A stretch of 37,320 bases of DNA from Candidatus Woesearchaeota archaeon (GTDB taxonomy: Archaea > Nanobdellota > Nanobdellia > SCGC-AAA011-G17 > JACQNH01). Under the pieces are notes generated by a model, which was not told the origin of the DNA, made no database searches, and saw nothing but the letters and a program-made list of their open reading frames with translations. Position 1 is the stretch's first letter. Every line of letters begins with the position of its first letter. Position numbers and translations under genes: made by a program. This document shows positions 23,461 through 28,051 of this stretch, one piece after another. The DNA is taken from contig JAHFIJ010000007.1 in NCBI GenBank assembly GCA_023246445.1, forward strand, positions 1 through 37,320. Direction: 5' to 3'.

Positions 23461-25359
23461 ATGCTAGAAATTTTAAAAGAGATATTGAACTGTATTCCGA
23501 ACAAGGAAGATATAAGTGAAACTGCTTTTGAGGGTGCGAATATTATTCTTTATACCAAAAATAAGGATTTCCTATTAAATAATAATGGGCTAATCAAAGA
23601 TATAGTGGATAAGGTTAAGAAAAGAATTGAATTAAGACCAGATCCTTCTATTACAATGGATCCTGAGGATGCCAAAAAAATTATAATGAAGGTAATCCCA
23701 AAAGAGGCGGGGATTGATAATGTAATATTTGACTATCATAGAAGTCGGGTAATCATAGAGGCTGAGAAGCCGGGATTAGCAATTGGCAAGAATGGAGATA
23801 CATTAAAAGAGATAAAAAAATTAACTTTTTGGGTGGCTTTAGTTAGAAGAACACCTCCATTAAGATCAAAATTAATCGAAAATATAAGGCAAGTATTGTA
23901 TGAAAATAATGATTTCAGGAAAAAATTCCTGCATAAGGTTGGTGAAAGGATTTATGGAGGGTTAAGAAAAAGCAGGGGGCGTGAGTGGGTGAGAATAAGT
24001 TTTTTAGGCGGTGCAAGAGAGGTGGGTAGAAGTTGTTTATTACTACAGACACAAGAGTCAAGAATTTTACTTGATTGTGGAATAAATGCTGCTGCGATTG
24101 ATGAGTCTGCTTATCCATATTTTGATGCTCCTGAATTTAACATAAAAGATTTAGACGCTGTTGTTTTATCACATCCGCATTTAGATCATTCTGCTGCTTT
24201 GCCATTATTAATTAAATATGGATATGATGGGCCAATATACTGCACTTCACCAACAAGGGATATAGCTGCATTATTAGCCTTAGATTTAATCAGCATTATG
24301 GAGAAAGAGGCTAAAAAAGTTCTTTATAGCTCTACAGAAGTTAAAGAAATGGTGAAAAGAACCATATGTTTGGATTATGAGGAAGTAACCGATATAACCC
24401 CTGATGTAAGATTAACATTTTATAATTCAGGACATGCATTAGGCGCTGCACAGGTTCATTTACATATAGGCAATGGAATGCACAATCTTCTTTATACTGC
24501 GGATTTAAATTATGAAACCTCAAATTTATTGTCTGCTGCAGTTACCAGATTTCCAAGATGTGAAACTTTGATTATTGAAGGGACTTACGGGGGGAAAGAT
24601 GATTTAACACCTACAAGAAGAGAAAGTGAAATGGGGTTATATGATATAATCAAGAAAACAGTTGCCAAAAAAGGAAAAATAATGATGCCTGTTTTAGGTA
24701 TAGGGAGATCACAAGAGGTAATGGTAGTGTTAGAAAAGGCAATGAGAGAGGGATTAATTGAAAAAGTTCCGATTTATATTCAGGGAATGGTCTGGGATGT
24801 AACGGCCATACATACGGCTTATCCTGATTTTTTTAACGTAAAGATTAGAAAGAACATATTTCATAAGAATTTAAATCCATTTATGAGCAACATATTCAAA
24901 AGAGTTGGAAGCCAGAAGGAAATGCAGGAAGTAATAAATGAGGCTGGACCTTGCGTTATAATGGCAACTTCTGGTATGATGGTTGGTGGGCCAATAGTTG
25001 AATATTTTAAGAGATTAGCGGACAATCCAAATAATGCTATAGTCTTTACATCTTATCAGGGAGATGGCTCATTGGGAAGAAGAATTTTAAATGGGGAAAA
25101 AGAGATAGCATTTCAAGATGAAGGAAAACAGATTATAGTTCCTGTTAGATGCAGTGTTTCTAATTTAAGAGGGTTTTCAGGACATTCCAGCAGAGATCAA
25201 TTAATTAAATATGTATTCAATATGGATCCTAAACCCAAAAAAATTATAGTTAATCATGGTGAGGCCAGTAAATGTTTAGATTTGGCTTCTTCTTTACATA
25301 AATTACATAAAGTTGAAACCATTGCCCCTAAAGTATTAGACGCTATTAGGTTGAGGTAG
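23461..25359 (+). CDS. fttA: Transcription termination factor FttA (archaeal KH-CPSF, aCPSF1)
   Basis: The 632-aa protein has N-terminal KH-type domains (GKNG at residues 109-112), then a metallo-beta-lactamase domain with HPHLDH at 238-243, a SGHALGAAQ histidine motif, TADLNYE, and a beta-CASP domain with IEGTYGG, SGMMVGG and FSGHSS then NHGE near the C-terminus. This order is specific to aCPSF1/FttA, which cleaves nascent RNA and terminates transcription with RNA polymerase. Length matches the family (about 630-640 aa). AGGAG at 23452-23456 ends four bases before the ATG. It follows psmB at 77 bp and is probably in the same unit. Confidence 0.95.
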   Translation: MLEILKEILNCIPNKEDISETAFEGANIILYTKNKDFLLNNNGLIKDIVDKVKKRIELRPDPSITMDPEDAKKIIMKVIPKEAGIDNVIFDYHRSRVIIEAEKPGLAIGKNGDTLKEIKKLTFWVALVRRTPPLRSKLIENIRQVLYENNDFRKKFLHKVGERIYGGLRKSRGREWVRISFLGGAREVGRSCLLLQTQESRILLDCGINAAAIDESAYPYFDAPEFNIKDLDAVVLSHPHLDHSAALPLLIKYGYDGPIYCTSPTRDIAALLALDLISIMEKEAKKVLYSSTEVKEMVKRTICLDYEEVTDITPDVRLTFYNSGHALGAAQVHLHIGNGMHNLLYTADLNYETSNLLSAAVTRFPRCETLIIEGTYGGKDDLTPTRRESEMGLYDIIKKTVAKKGKIMMPVLGIGRSQEVMVVLEKAMREGLIEKVPIYIQGMVWDVTAIHTAYPDFFNVKIRKNIFHKNLNPFMSNIFKRVGSQKEMQEVINEAGPCVIMATSGMMVGGPIVEYFKRLADNPNNAIVFTSYQGDGSLGRRILNGEKEIAFQDEGKQIIVPVRCSVSNLRGFSGHSSRDQLIKYVFNMDPKPKKIIVNHGEASKCLDLASSLHKLHKVETIAPKVLDAIRLR

Positions 25360-25530
25360 AAATTTTATTATATATTTAACTGCAGCCATGACATCATCTT
25401 TTTTAATAATCGGCTTACTATGACTTTGTGTCTATAACTATTCATATTTAATGTGATAAATTTAAATAGAATTAGTAAAGATGTAGTTTTAAGATATATA
25501 TTATTTTGATTATATTAAATGTTAGAGATA

Positions 25531-25563: not shown

Positions 25564-27339
25564 ATGTCTAATCCCATCGAACAATCCCCAGAACAAAATC
25601 CTTATGGAATTAATTTGACAAATCGTCTTGTTGTTCCTTACGCAGAAAAACTATTGTTTAGTAGAAATAATGTTCCTGGGGGGCATATCACTCTGGTAGA
25701 TTATATGGGCGGAGATGAGACGATAGCCAGAGTAGCGACTGCAGGTCATGGTTTAAGTATTTTCCCAGAAAACCCACAACTACCTGATTTTTTAGAGCAT
25801 TTAGCAGCCAAAAGTATTTTAGAACCATTTAAATCAGTTCAATTAAAATTTATGATTCAATCAGGTATTAGGGTTGCTTTGGATGTAGTATATGAGCCTA
25901 TGGCAAGTGTTAACGAATATTCTGGAAGGTATTCTGATATGCTTGATACTTCCTTTATTCCTTTACTAGAAATGTTAACTATTGCCATGAAAGGTGATAA
26001 AGAAAATAGTAATAAAGTTCTGGAATTAATGAAAGACGCTAGAGCAAAAAATTATGAAGCTTATAGAAGATTGGTGGGTGAAGAAATTGATCTTGCTAGG
26101 GAACTTGCCAGAACACCATTAGAAATTGATAATGACACAAAATATTTCTGGAAGATTGATCTACTTTCTCTTGTTGATTTTATAGTAAGAATAAGAAGCA
26201 AAAGAGAAGAATATGATCCAATACATCCTTATTTGGATAATATGGAAGAAGCAGCTAGGATAGTTGCTCCAAATGCAACACAAGCATTAATTAAATTGGA
26301 AGAAAATGATGTAAAAGCGATCGAATTAACTTTACCAAGAGATAATCTTATTGTTGATGCACTGCTTTCGCCTGCGAATTGGAAAGCTGAATTAACAAGA
26401 AGAGTAGTTGCAAGGGAATTTGATGATGAATTATTTAAAAGGATACAATTTATGGAAAATGGCTTTGTCCAACCAGTTGATTATATGGGGGATGATAAAG
26501 CCCCTGCAGACAGTGCAAGAGTAAGTTATGGTTCAGGAACTAGAAGATTAAGCACTGATGCTGGTTTAACAAGATATTTAGTAAGAAATAGGCATACGAC
26601 ACCAATTGAACAAGTAGAAGCGGCATTTGAATTTAGTGTTCCTGTTTTTGTAGATCCAAGGCAAGCAGGTAGACATAGAACTTTAGATCGTCATGGTTTT
26701 ATGGGTTATATCCCTATAGGCGATAGCTTTTTTGTTCCCCCGGTAGATCAATTAAGACATCAATCAAGAACAAACAGACAAGGAAGAGGTAATGAATTAA
26801 GTGACGAGGTAAAAAATGAGGCTATTAGTTTGTTAAAAGCTTCATATCAAAGAGAAATTGGTTTAACAGCTAAACTTAGAGAATTGGATGTTCCTGAAGG
26901 TATTGTAAGGGGAAGAAAGGGTGTTGGATTTTTTAATAGGGGTTGGAGAACAGGGGATTTACATAATTGGGGTCATTTTTTTAGTTTGAGATTGAATCCA
27001 CATGCTCAAAAAGAGATACAAGATTTTGCAAGAGTTCATTTTGATTTAATGAGAAAGTTAGCCCCAACGGTTATTGGTGCTTTCGAGGATTATTTAATGA
27101 ATTCAATAAGTTTTACTGCTTTAGAATTAAGTGTATTAGCTTCTATGATGGATATGCCCACCGAAAATATTGATATTGACGACCTTAATCTTTATAGACC
27201 TATTGGTTTTATTACGAAAAAAACATTGGGAAAAGAGGTTTTAACAAGAGAGGGAGAAGAGCTTAAAACTAAATTAAAAACTATTTTGGATTTAAAAAAA
27301 GGGTTAAACATAGAGAAGTTGAAGAATGGTAACTCATAA
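25564..27339 (+). CDS. thyX: Tandem-domain flavin-dependent thymidylate synthase (ThyX-ThyX fusion with split signature)
   Basis: ThyX makes dTMP from dUMP with FAD and methylenetetrahydrofolate. This 591-aa protein is about twice normal size. The N-terminal copy (about 30-260) carries SVNEYSGRYS at 115-124, the second half of the ThyX signature RHRxxSxNExSxRY, but the preceding R-Q-x-x-R-H-R positions read LDVVYEP (106-112). The C-terminal copy (about 295-560) carries RQAGRHRT at 366-373, but the S-x-N-E-x-S-x-R-Y half is replaced by DRHGFMGYI. It also keeps SLRLNPHAQKEI (474-485), the dUMP-binding end of ThyX. The two copies thus complement each other. ATG 25564 is chosen because a TATA box lies between it and ATG 25519. 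tmk overlaps the 3' end by 14 bp. Confidence 0.85.
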   Translation: MSNPIEQSPEQNPYGINLTNRLVVPYAEKLLFSRNNVPGGHITLVDYMGGDETIARVATAGHGLSIFPENPQLPDFLEHLAAKSILEPFKSVQLKFMIQSGIRVALDVVYEPMASVNEYSGRYSDMLDTSFIPLLEMLTIAMKGDKENSNKVLELMKDARAKNYEAYRRLVGEEIDLARELARTPLEIDNDTKYFWKIDLLSLVDFIVRIRSKREEYDPIHPYLDNMEEAARIVAPNATQALIKLEENDVKAIELTLPRDNLIVDALLSPANWKAELTRRVVAREFDDELFKRIQFMENGFVQPVDYMGDDKAPADSARVSYGSGTRRLSTDAGLTRYLVRNRHTTPIEQVEAAFEFSVPVFVDPRQAGRHRTLDRHGFMGYIPIGDSFFVPPVDQLRHQSRTNRQGRGNELSDEVKNEAISLLKASYQREIGLTAKLRELDVPEGIVRGRKGVGFFNRGWRTGDLHNWGHFFSLRLNPHAQKEIQDFARVHFDLMRKLAPTVIGAFEDYLMNSISFTALELSVLASMMDMPTENIDIDDLNLYRPIGFITKKTLGKEVLTREGEELKTKLKTILDLKKGLNIEKLKNGNS

Positions 27340-28051
27340 ATTAATTGTAATTGAAGGTTCAGATGGTTCTGGTAAAAAGACTCAAAGTGATATATTGGTA
27401 AATAAGTTAAGGCAATACAATCCAACAGCAAAATTTAGTTTTCCAGATTATGAAGGACCTTTTGGCAAACAAGTAAGACACTATTTAGATGGTGGTTTTG
27501 GAGATCCTAAAACTTTTATAAGATTGTCCTCATTTGAAGGGATAAACAATCCAGGAATTAAAGAAGCTGCTTTTCTTGGTGAACTGACCTATATAAGATT
27601 GTCCGCACTTCTTTATGCGGCAGACAGAGCAATTAATCTTCCTAAATTACAAGAAGCATTGAATAAAGGAATTGTTGTTTGCGACAGATATGATATTTCA
27701 AACTTGGCACATCAAGGTGCAAAACTTGAAGGGAAAGAAAGGCGGGATCTAATCAACTGGTTAAAAAAATTAGAAAGAGAAGATGTAGGCTTACCAATAC
27801 CTGATTTAGTTGTTTATCTTAACCTACCCACTGAAAAAGCGAGAGAAGCAATGGAAGTTCAAGGAAGAAAACTAGATCTACATGAAGCGGATTTAGATTA
27901 TTTGGTTAAAGTTAATAATCTTTATTTAGAATTAGCAAGGAAAGAAAATTGGAGTATCATTGAATGTTTAAAAGACAGTAAAAGAAAAACTAAAGAAGAG
28001 ATATCAGAAGAGATATTTTGGGCGGTAAGATCAATAATTCAATTAGAATAA
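27326..28051 (+). CDS. tmk: Thymidylate kinase-like protein (copy 2, thyX-linked)
   Basis: The 241-aa product is a P-loop kinase of the Tmk group. The P-loop is EGSDGSGKKTQ, where the usual S/T after the lysine is K; the next T may serve. CDRYDISNLAHQGAKL gives the D-R-Y motif, and VVYLNLPTEKAREAM is the strand-helix block of Tmk. Tmk-like proteins with G-K-x-T-Q P-loops occur in several lineages. The gene overlaps the thyX 3' end by 14 bp, so the pair should be co-translated and would make dUMP into dTMP and then dTDP. It differs strongly from copy 1 (710-1363). It converges on the glycosyltransferase gene with a 13-bp overlap. Confidence 0.88.
   Translation: MVTHKLIVIEGSDGSGKKTQSDILVNKLRQYNPTAKFSFPDYEGPFGKQVRHYLDGGFGDPKTFIRLSSFEGINNPGIKEAAFLGELTYIRLSALLYAADRAINLPKLQEALNKGIVVCDRYDISNLAHQGAKLEGKERRDLINWLKKLEREDVGLPIPDLVVYLNLPTEKAREAMEVQGRKLDLHEADLDYLVKVNNLYLELARKENWSIIECLKDSKRKTKEEISEEIFWAVRSIIQLE

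Follow-up and report, generated by a model that had tools for sequence, protein, structure and literature searches.

The locus described here raises the question of how a flavin-dependent thymidylate synthase (ThyX) can operate when it departs from the known layout of this enzyme. In known ThyX each chain is a single domain with the full motif and the four sites are identical, whereas the protein found here consists of two unlike fused domains between which the active-site residues are split. The fused thyX-thyX gene occupies positions 25564-27339 of the window (the whole 37,320-nucleotide stretch of Candidatus Woesearchaeota DNA that was analysed) and lies on the forward strand, as do all the domains, motifs and the kinase gene located below. 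It encodes 591 amino acids, in which the initial annotation had recognized two ThyX-like domains on a single polypeptide. A profile search bore this out: within the one open reading frame PF02511 matched twice, both times above its curated cut-off, at 25690-26274 (58 bits; the N-terminal or dUMP-loop half) and at 26476-27069 (75 bits; the C-terminal or FAD-binding half). The full-length protein scored 127.7 bits against PF02511 (cut-off 24.8) and 125.5 against TIGR02170 (cut-off 87.9), and each half also passed the Pfam cut-off separately. An alternative in-frame ATG upstream, at 25519, would lengthen the product by 15 residues; a start equivalent to 25564 is used by several relatives, for example MTDGKNPFGVNKTKR and MAEENPFRISVTKR. 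The upstream neighbour (window positions 23461-25359) encodes FttA/aCPSF1, an archaeal transcription-termination factor with KH and beta-CASP domains, which identifies the contig as archaeal.

The catalytic signature had been described as divided between the two domains, and the translation confirmed this with the motifs at exactly the residues given. In the N-half, SVNEYSGRYS (residues 115-124; 25906-25935) retains the substrate loop (E86, S88, R90 and Y91; residue numbers of this kind are those of Thermotoga maritima ThyX), while LDVVYEP (residues 106-112; 25879-25899) replaces R-Q-x-x-R-H-R. Conversely, the C-half retains the FAD-binding RHR (R78-H79-R80) together with Q75 in RQAGRHRT (residues 366-373; 26659-26682), while its substrate loop is lost, DRHGFMGYI (residues 375-383; 26686-26712) standing in place of S-x-N-E-x-S-x-R-Y. 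Three further elements segregated in the alignment: R183 (26110-26112), the equivalent of R147, is kept in all ten N-halves compared below; HTTPIE (residues 344-349; 26593-26610), which holds the equivalents of H53, T55 and E58, occurs in the C-half only; and so does R476 (26989-26991), the equivalent of R174, which activates dUMP. The two halves of the window protein are just 19% identical to each other.

A search for homologues of the full two-domain architecture, proposed with the initial annotation, uncovered the same fusion in nine further genomes from several families of the same phylum (loci L051-L055 and L072-L075), with 33-48% identity to the window protein. These nine and the window protein (n = 10) are referred to below as type I; the protein of L075 is incomplete at its N-terminus, and L052 encodes a protein identical to that of L001 (a Candidatus Woesearchaeota record). 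The recurrence of the fusion bears directly on whether the gene might be a product of chimeric assembly, or of a frameshift that merged two neighbouring thyX genes. Although the source genome is fragmented (46 contigs), the same order and the same losses are found on independent contigs of nine other genomes and the reading frame is open throughout; we therefore rejected an artefact as vanishingly improbable.

To compare the halves residue by residue, all type I proteins were aligned with T. maritima ThyX and 61 single-domain ThyX proteins. In the N-half, E86, S88, G89, R90, Y91 and R147 were conserved in ten out of ten, and S30, H53, E58, R78 and R174 were absent, with G at position 30 and I or M at position 53; an R at position 80 occurred in one of the ten, outside any RHR. 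The C-half conserved S30, H53, S/T55, E58, Q75, R78, H79, R80 and R174 in ten out of ten and lacked E86, S88 and R90 just as consistently. No single domain thus carried a complete RHRx(7)S motif, RHR being confined to the C-half and SxNExSGRY to the N-half in all ten homologues, and the losses that the initial annotation had called complementary are so throughout type I. Every FAD- or dUMP-binding residue considered (S30, H53, S/T55, E58, Q75, R78, H79, R80, E86, S88, R90, Y91, R147 and R174) was present in at least one half, and neither half alone could, as far as its residues tell, form the site. Because the same pattern of retention and loss recurs in ten out of ten fused homologues, the complementary split is, judged from the sequences, not due to chance; the corresponding Fisher value for the residue partition was 0.001, in a test that assumes neighbouring residues to be independent, which they are not.

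What the division means can be read against the published roles of the ThyX subunits. One site is drawn from three subunits, of which A supplies the RHR motif and R199 (R174 in T. maritima), B supplies S71 and R190 (T55 and R165), and C supplies S105, R107 and Y108 (S88, R90 and Y91) (PMC6514825); the matching of Mtb to T. maritima residues was made in this analysis. In the PBCV-1 enzyme, Q75 and R182 (R174) reside on one monomer and S88/Q89 on another (PMC3498832). H53 is contributed by a third monomer (PMC11940539). The activation of dUMP falls to R174, with S88 and Y91 aiding catalysis (PMC8316439). We placed S30 in role B and R147 in role C solely from their co-segregation with H53 and with the loop, respectively. 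Since the kept residues follow these roles, the type I division would correspond to roles A and B in the C-half and role C in the N-half. The division reaches beyond the loop and the RHR motif, as the share of the third subunit (H53/T55), R174 and R147 segregate too. We then enumerated the arrangements of halves under D2 (222) symmetry. For type I, complete sites, two out of four, were obtained only with the C-halves on the A-B axis, and a homotetramer of either half contained no complete site. As the division follows the subunit roles, type I ThyX is predicted to be a dimer of fused chains in which two of the four sites are complete, in line with the obligate pseudo-heterodimer with half the sites that the initial annotation had proposed.

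The predicted structure was examined for the ThyX fold and for the packing of the halves. AlphaFold2 modelled the fused chain, on an alignment of fused proteins, with a mean pLDDT of 78.6 and a pTM of 0.73, and for the commoner doubled type introduced below (L089) it reached a pLDDT of 84.2 and a pTM of 0.83. For two domains of similar size, a pTM this high hints that the halves pack against each other in a definite way. For the fused-chain model, the top Foldseek matches were structures of ThyX (E 1e-13, target TM-score 0.85), the best matches in the PDB being Thermus and Thermotoga ThyX. The single-domain long ThyX proteins (Thermus thermophilus Thy1, PDB 6j61; T. maritima TM0449, PDB 1o26/4gt9) share with type I both the fold and the total of active-site residues. 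In the model, residues 118-124 of the N-half loop fell below a pLDDT of 50, which would fit a loop that becomes ordered only with a partner; the loop of L089 (residues 109-120) was again poorly ordered. The solved ThyX chains matching the window protein or L089 comprised none longer than 270 amino acids.

Purifying selection acts on both halves: in the two closest comparisons, dN/dS was 0.21-0.29 in the N-half and 0.13-0.15 in the C-half. The somewhat faster evolution of the N-half, together with its lack of the RHR motif, H53 and R174, could also be taken to mean that one half is decaying or purely structural, and that the enzyme works through its C-half only, in some otherwise non-canonical way, or not at all. 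We consider this improbable: the loop residues that are gone from every C-half never vary in the N-half, neither half could build a complete site as a homotetramer, and nine out of ten type I genomes gave no other thymidylate synthase match.

The genomic context points to thymidylate synthesis as well. The thymidylate kinase gene tmk (27326-28051; Thymidylate_kin, PF02223, 1e-25) shares 14 bases with the end of the fused thyX, as the initial annotation had noted, and tmk adjoins the type I gene in all nine loci with a readable flank (the window and eight others), being divergent in G091. Matches to the dCTP-deaminase family (DCD) were found in eight of the ten type I genomes. A backup enzyme elsewhere in the genome, which would have counted against the proposal, was looked for: the source genome (91% complete) yielded neither a further PF02511 gene nor a PF00303 (thyA) gene, and a thyA gene could conceivably have been missed in its unsequenced part. 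One genome, G147 (C59, C27, C2), combines a type I gene with a second doubled ThyX, different in kind, and a partial thyA match. Serine hydroxymethyltransferase (SHMT; PF00464) was not found in nine of the ten type I genomes (G000, G004, G072, G084, G091, G071, G147, G303 and G179); the supply of methylene-tetrahydrofolate is therefore doubtful, and these organisms would have to rely on salvage or on a different one-carbon donor. This doubtful folate supply, and the company the type I gene keeps in G147, would suit a protein that has moved away from thymidylate synthesis, to methylate another nucleotide or to serve another flavin function. Such a shift seems slightly less probable still than a decaying or purely structural half, given that each known dUMP- and FAD-binding residue survives in at least one half, that tmk and DCD accompany the gene as described, and that searches for a further thymidylate synthase usually found none. 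In G295, a truncated type I remnant (106 amino acids; L090, 1311-1628) directly precedes a very divergent ThyX-like reading frame (1634-2953; at least 440 amino acids, extending past the end of the locus). The type I gene has apparently been replaced in place there, an intact copy being present in G303 of the same genus.

The scenario originally proposed, in which ThyX was duplicated and fused and an interface site was divided, is thus the best explanation of the type I gene, because the losses track the subunit roles, the split is conserved in ten proteins, both halves are under selection and no other thyX or thyA was found. We infer with high confidence that the product of the gene is an active flavin-dependent thymidylate synthase in the form of a fused pseudo-heterodimer, an inference that covers its activity, its arrangement and its number of sites. 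In the proposed mechanism, the C-half would be the FAD-holding unit, with the RHR motif, R174 and the helix of H53/T55/E58, and the N-half the substrate-loop unit, with ExSGRY and R147. Two chains would form a pseudo-tetramer whose C-halves pair across the A-B axis of the normal tetramer and share two FADs, and each N-half would deliver its loop to a C-half, so that two of the four canonical sites are completed and two are dead. Within one site, the loop and the RHR motif could belong to a single chain or to two different ones.

The fused ThyX described by the initial annotation is real and far from unique: doubled ThyX proteins are numerous among DPANN archaea and Patescibacteria, and this wide spread rules out a lineage-specific oddity. 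ThyX was present in 177 of 371 genomes of the window's phylum, in 87 of 240 of the phylum of L015 (a Dojkabacteria record) and in 104 of 146 of the phylum of L022 (a Micrarchaeota record). By approximate counts, made by hand from the match tables, about 112 genomes of the first phylum had two or more ThyX matches, mostly within one reading frame of 420-620 amino acids, and clear single-domain thyX genes were found in only about 21; about 56 genomes of the second phylum had two or more matches and about 75 of the third had two. No thyA match was obtained in 38 of 40 genomes, nearly all with a doubled ThyX, the other two giving partial matches. The doubled form hence seems to be the usual one in the window's phylum, Micrarchaeota and Patescibacteria.

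Clustering of the doubled proteins of the window's phylum gave groups with 57, 10 (type I), 9, 5 and 3 members, besides two singletons. The commoner doubled ThyX (c0, c2, c3 and c4; for example L089 and L230) is a fused pair whose N-half holds the substrate loop and R147 and whose C-half holds RHR and R174, as in type I, and the smaller non-type-I clusters deviate from this split at single positions. The two kinds differ in the share of S30, H53 and S55. In the N-half of c0, S30 was present in 55, S55 in 54 and H53 in 41 of 57 proteins; in c2 and c4 the H53/S55 helix and position 30 (C instead of S) likewise belong to the N-half, as does H53 in c3. In type I, by contrast, S30 and H53 reside in the C-half in ten out of ten. 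Patescibacterial c0 proteins had S30 and S55 in 18 of 18 N-halves, H53 in 5 of 18 (otherwise D), and RHR in nearly all C-halves; R165 was present in both c0 halves and is uninformative there on the division of roles. By its residues, then, the commoner type would hold role A in the C-half and roles B and C in the N-half. In the D2 enumeration this division requires the C-halves to lie on the A-D axis, unlike type I, which would imply two differing arrangements of the halves.

The origin of the two types was addressed phylogenetically. Both type I halves were placed in a clade with T. maritima ThyX and the long single-domain proteins (support 99); the remaining doubled halves lay outside this long-ThyX clade. 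AU tests rejected a single clade of all doubled halves, and with it one origin (p 6e-5), as well as one clade of all N-halves (p 0.005) or of all C-halves (p 0.02), in each case with long branches and post hoc grouping weakening the test. One clade for the type I N- and C-halves, which are 19% identical, was not rejected (p 0.55), so that type I may have arisen by tandem duplication or by the joining of two distant ThyX. Since the tests reject one clade of doubled halves, they speak for two or more independent doublings of ThyX. A viral source of the fusion appears unlikely, as the matches from a scan of viral contigs and from a tblastn search of phages cover approximately the length of a single ThyX domain (roughly 230-320 codons); both query halves aligned to the same one-domain matches. 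We consider it likely, with somewhat less confidence than we attach to the type I enzyme itself, that at least two duplications and fusions of ThyX took place among ultra-small prokaryotes, its interface site being divided each time but in two different ways, with FAD held between two C-halves in type I and between a C- and an N-half in the commoner type. Half of the four sites would be lost, and the divided double would be the normal ThyX in Nanoarchaeota, Micrarchaeota and Patescibacteria.

A literature search, with subscription papers outside its scope, returned no description of a doubled ThyX and nothing linking ThyX with Woesearchaeota or DPANN; one paper mentions ThyX along with the Candidate Phyla Radiation, and the relevant passage concerns dCTP deaminase. 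A doubled ThyX with a divided site is thus seemingly undescribed, although entries for the two-domain architecture may exist in domain databases. ThyA (PF00303) makes the same product as ThyX and also has an interface active site, but its fold and chemistry are unrelated. The doubled proteins amount to a natural, repeated experiment in which a symmetric enzyme became asymmetric, with losses predictable from the subunit roles and two outcomes. They make it testable which residues of a three-subunit site cooperate, and whether all four sites are ever required. Should the doubled form be usual in three phyla whose microbes have small genomes and often depend on a host, a plain 'ThyX' annotation conceals the doubling, and searches for a complete RHRx7S would overlook or misjudge such proteins.

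Several variant architectures were observed alongside the main clusters. Patescibacterial triple fusions tmk-ThyX-ThyX of 736-776 amino acids (L242, 277-2598; L244, 1337-3544; L247, 331-2658) link tmk in one polypeptide, whereas in type I it overlaps within the operon, and unlike type I they carry c0-type halves. At the other extreme, L199, L206 and L212 (cluster c4) encode compact doubled ThyX proteins of about 380-395 amino acids with the same complementary split. A doubled ThyX outside all other clusters (L188, 1773-3416; G110) has RHY and RHH at the RHR positions, and G110 also carries a separate, shorter ThyX (L134). Finally, the Gemmatimonadetes ThyX of L047 (3995-6124) contains an insert of about 370 residues directly after RHRTA, which resembles an intein with an endonuclease part and ends in HN before SINEYSGRYS.
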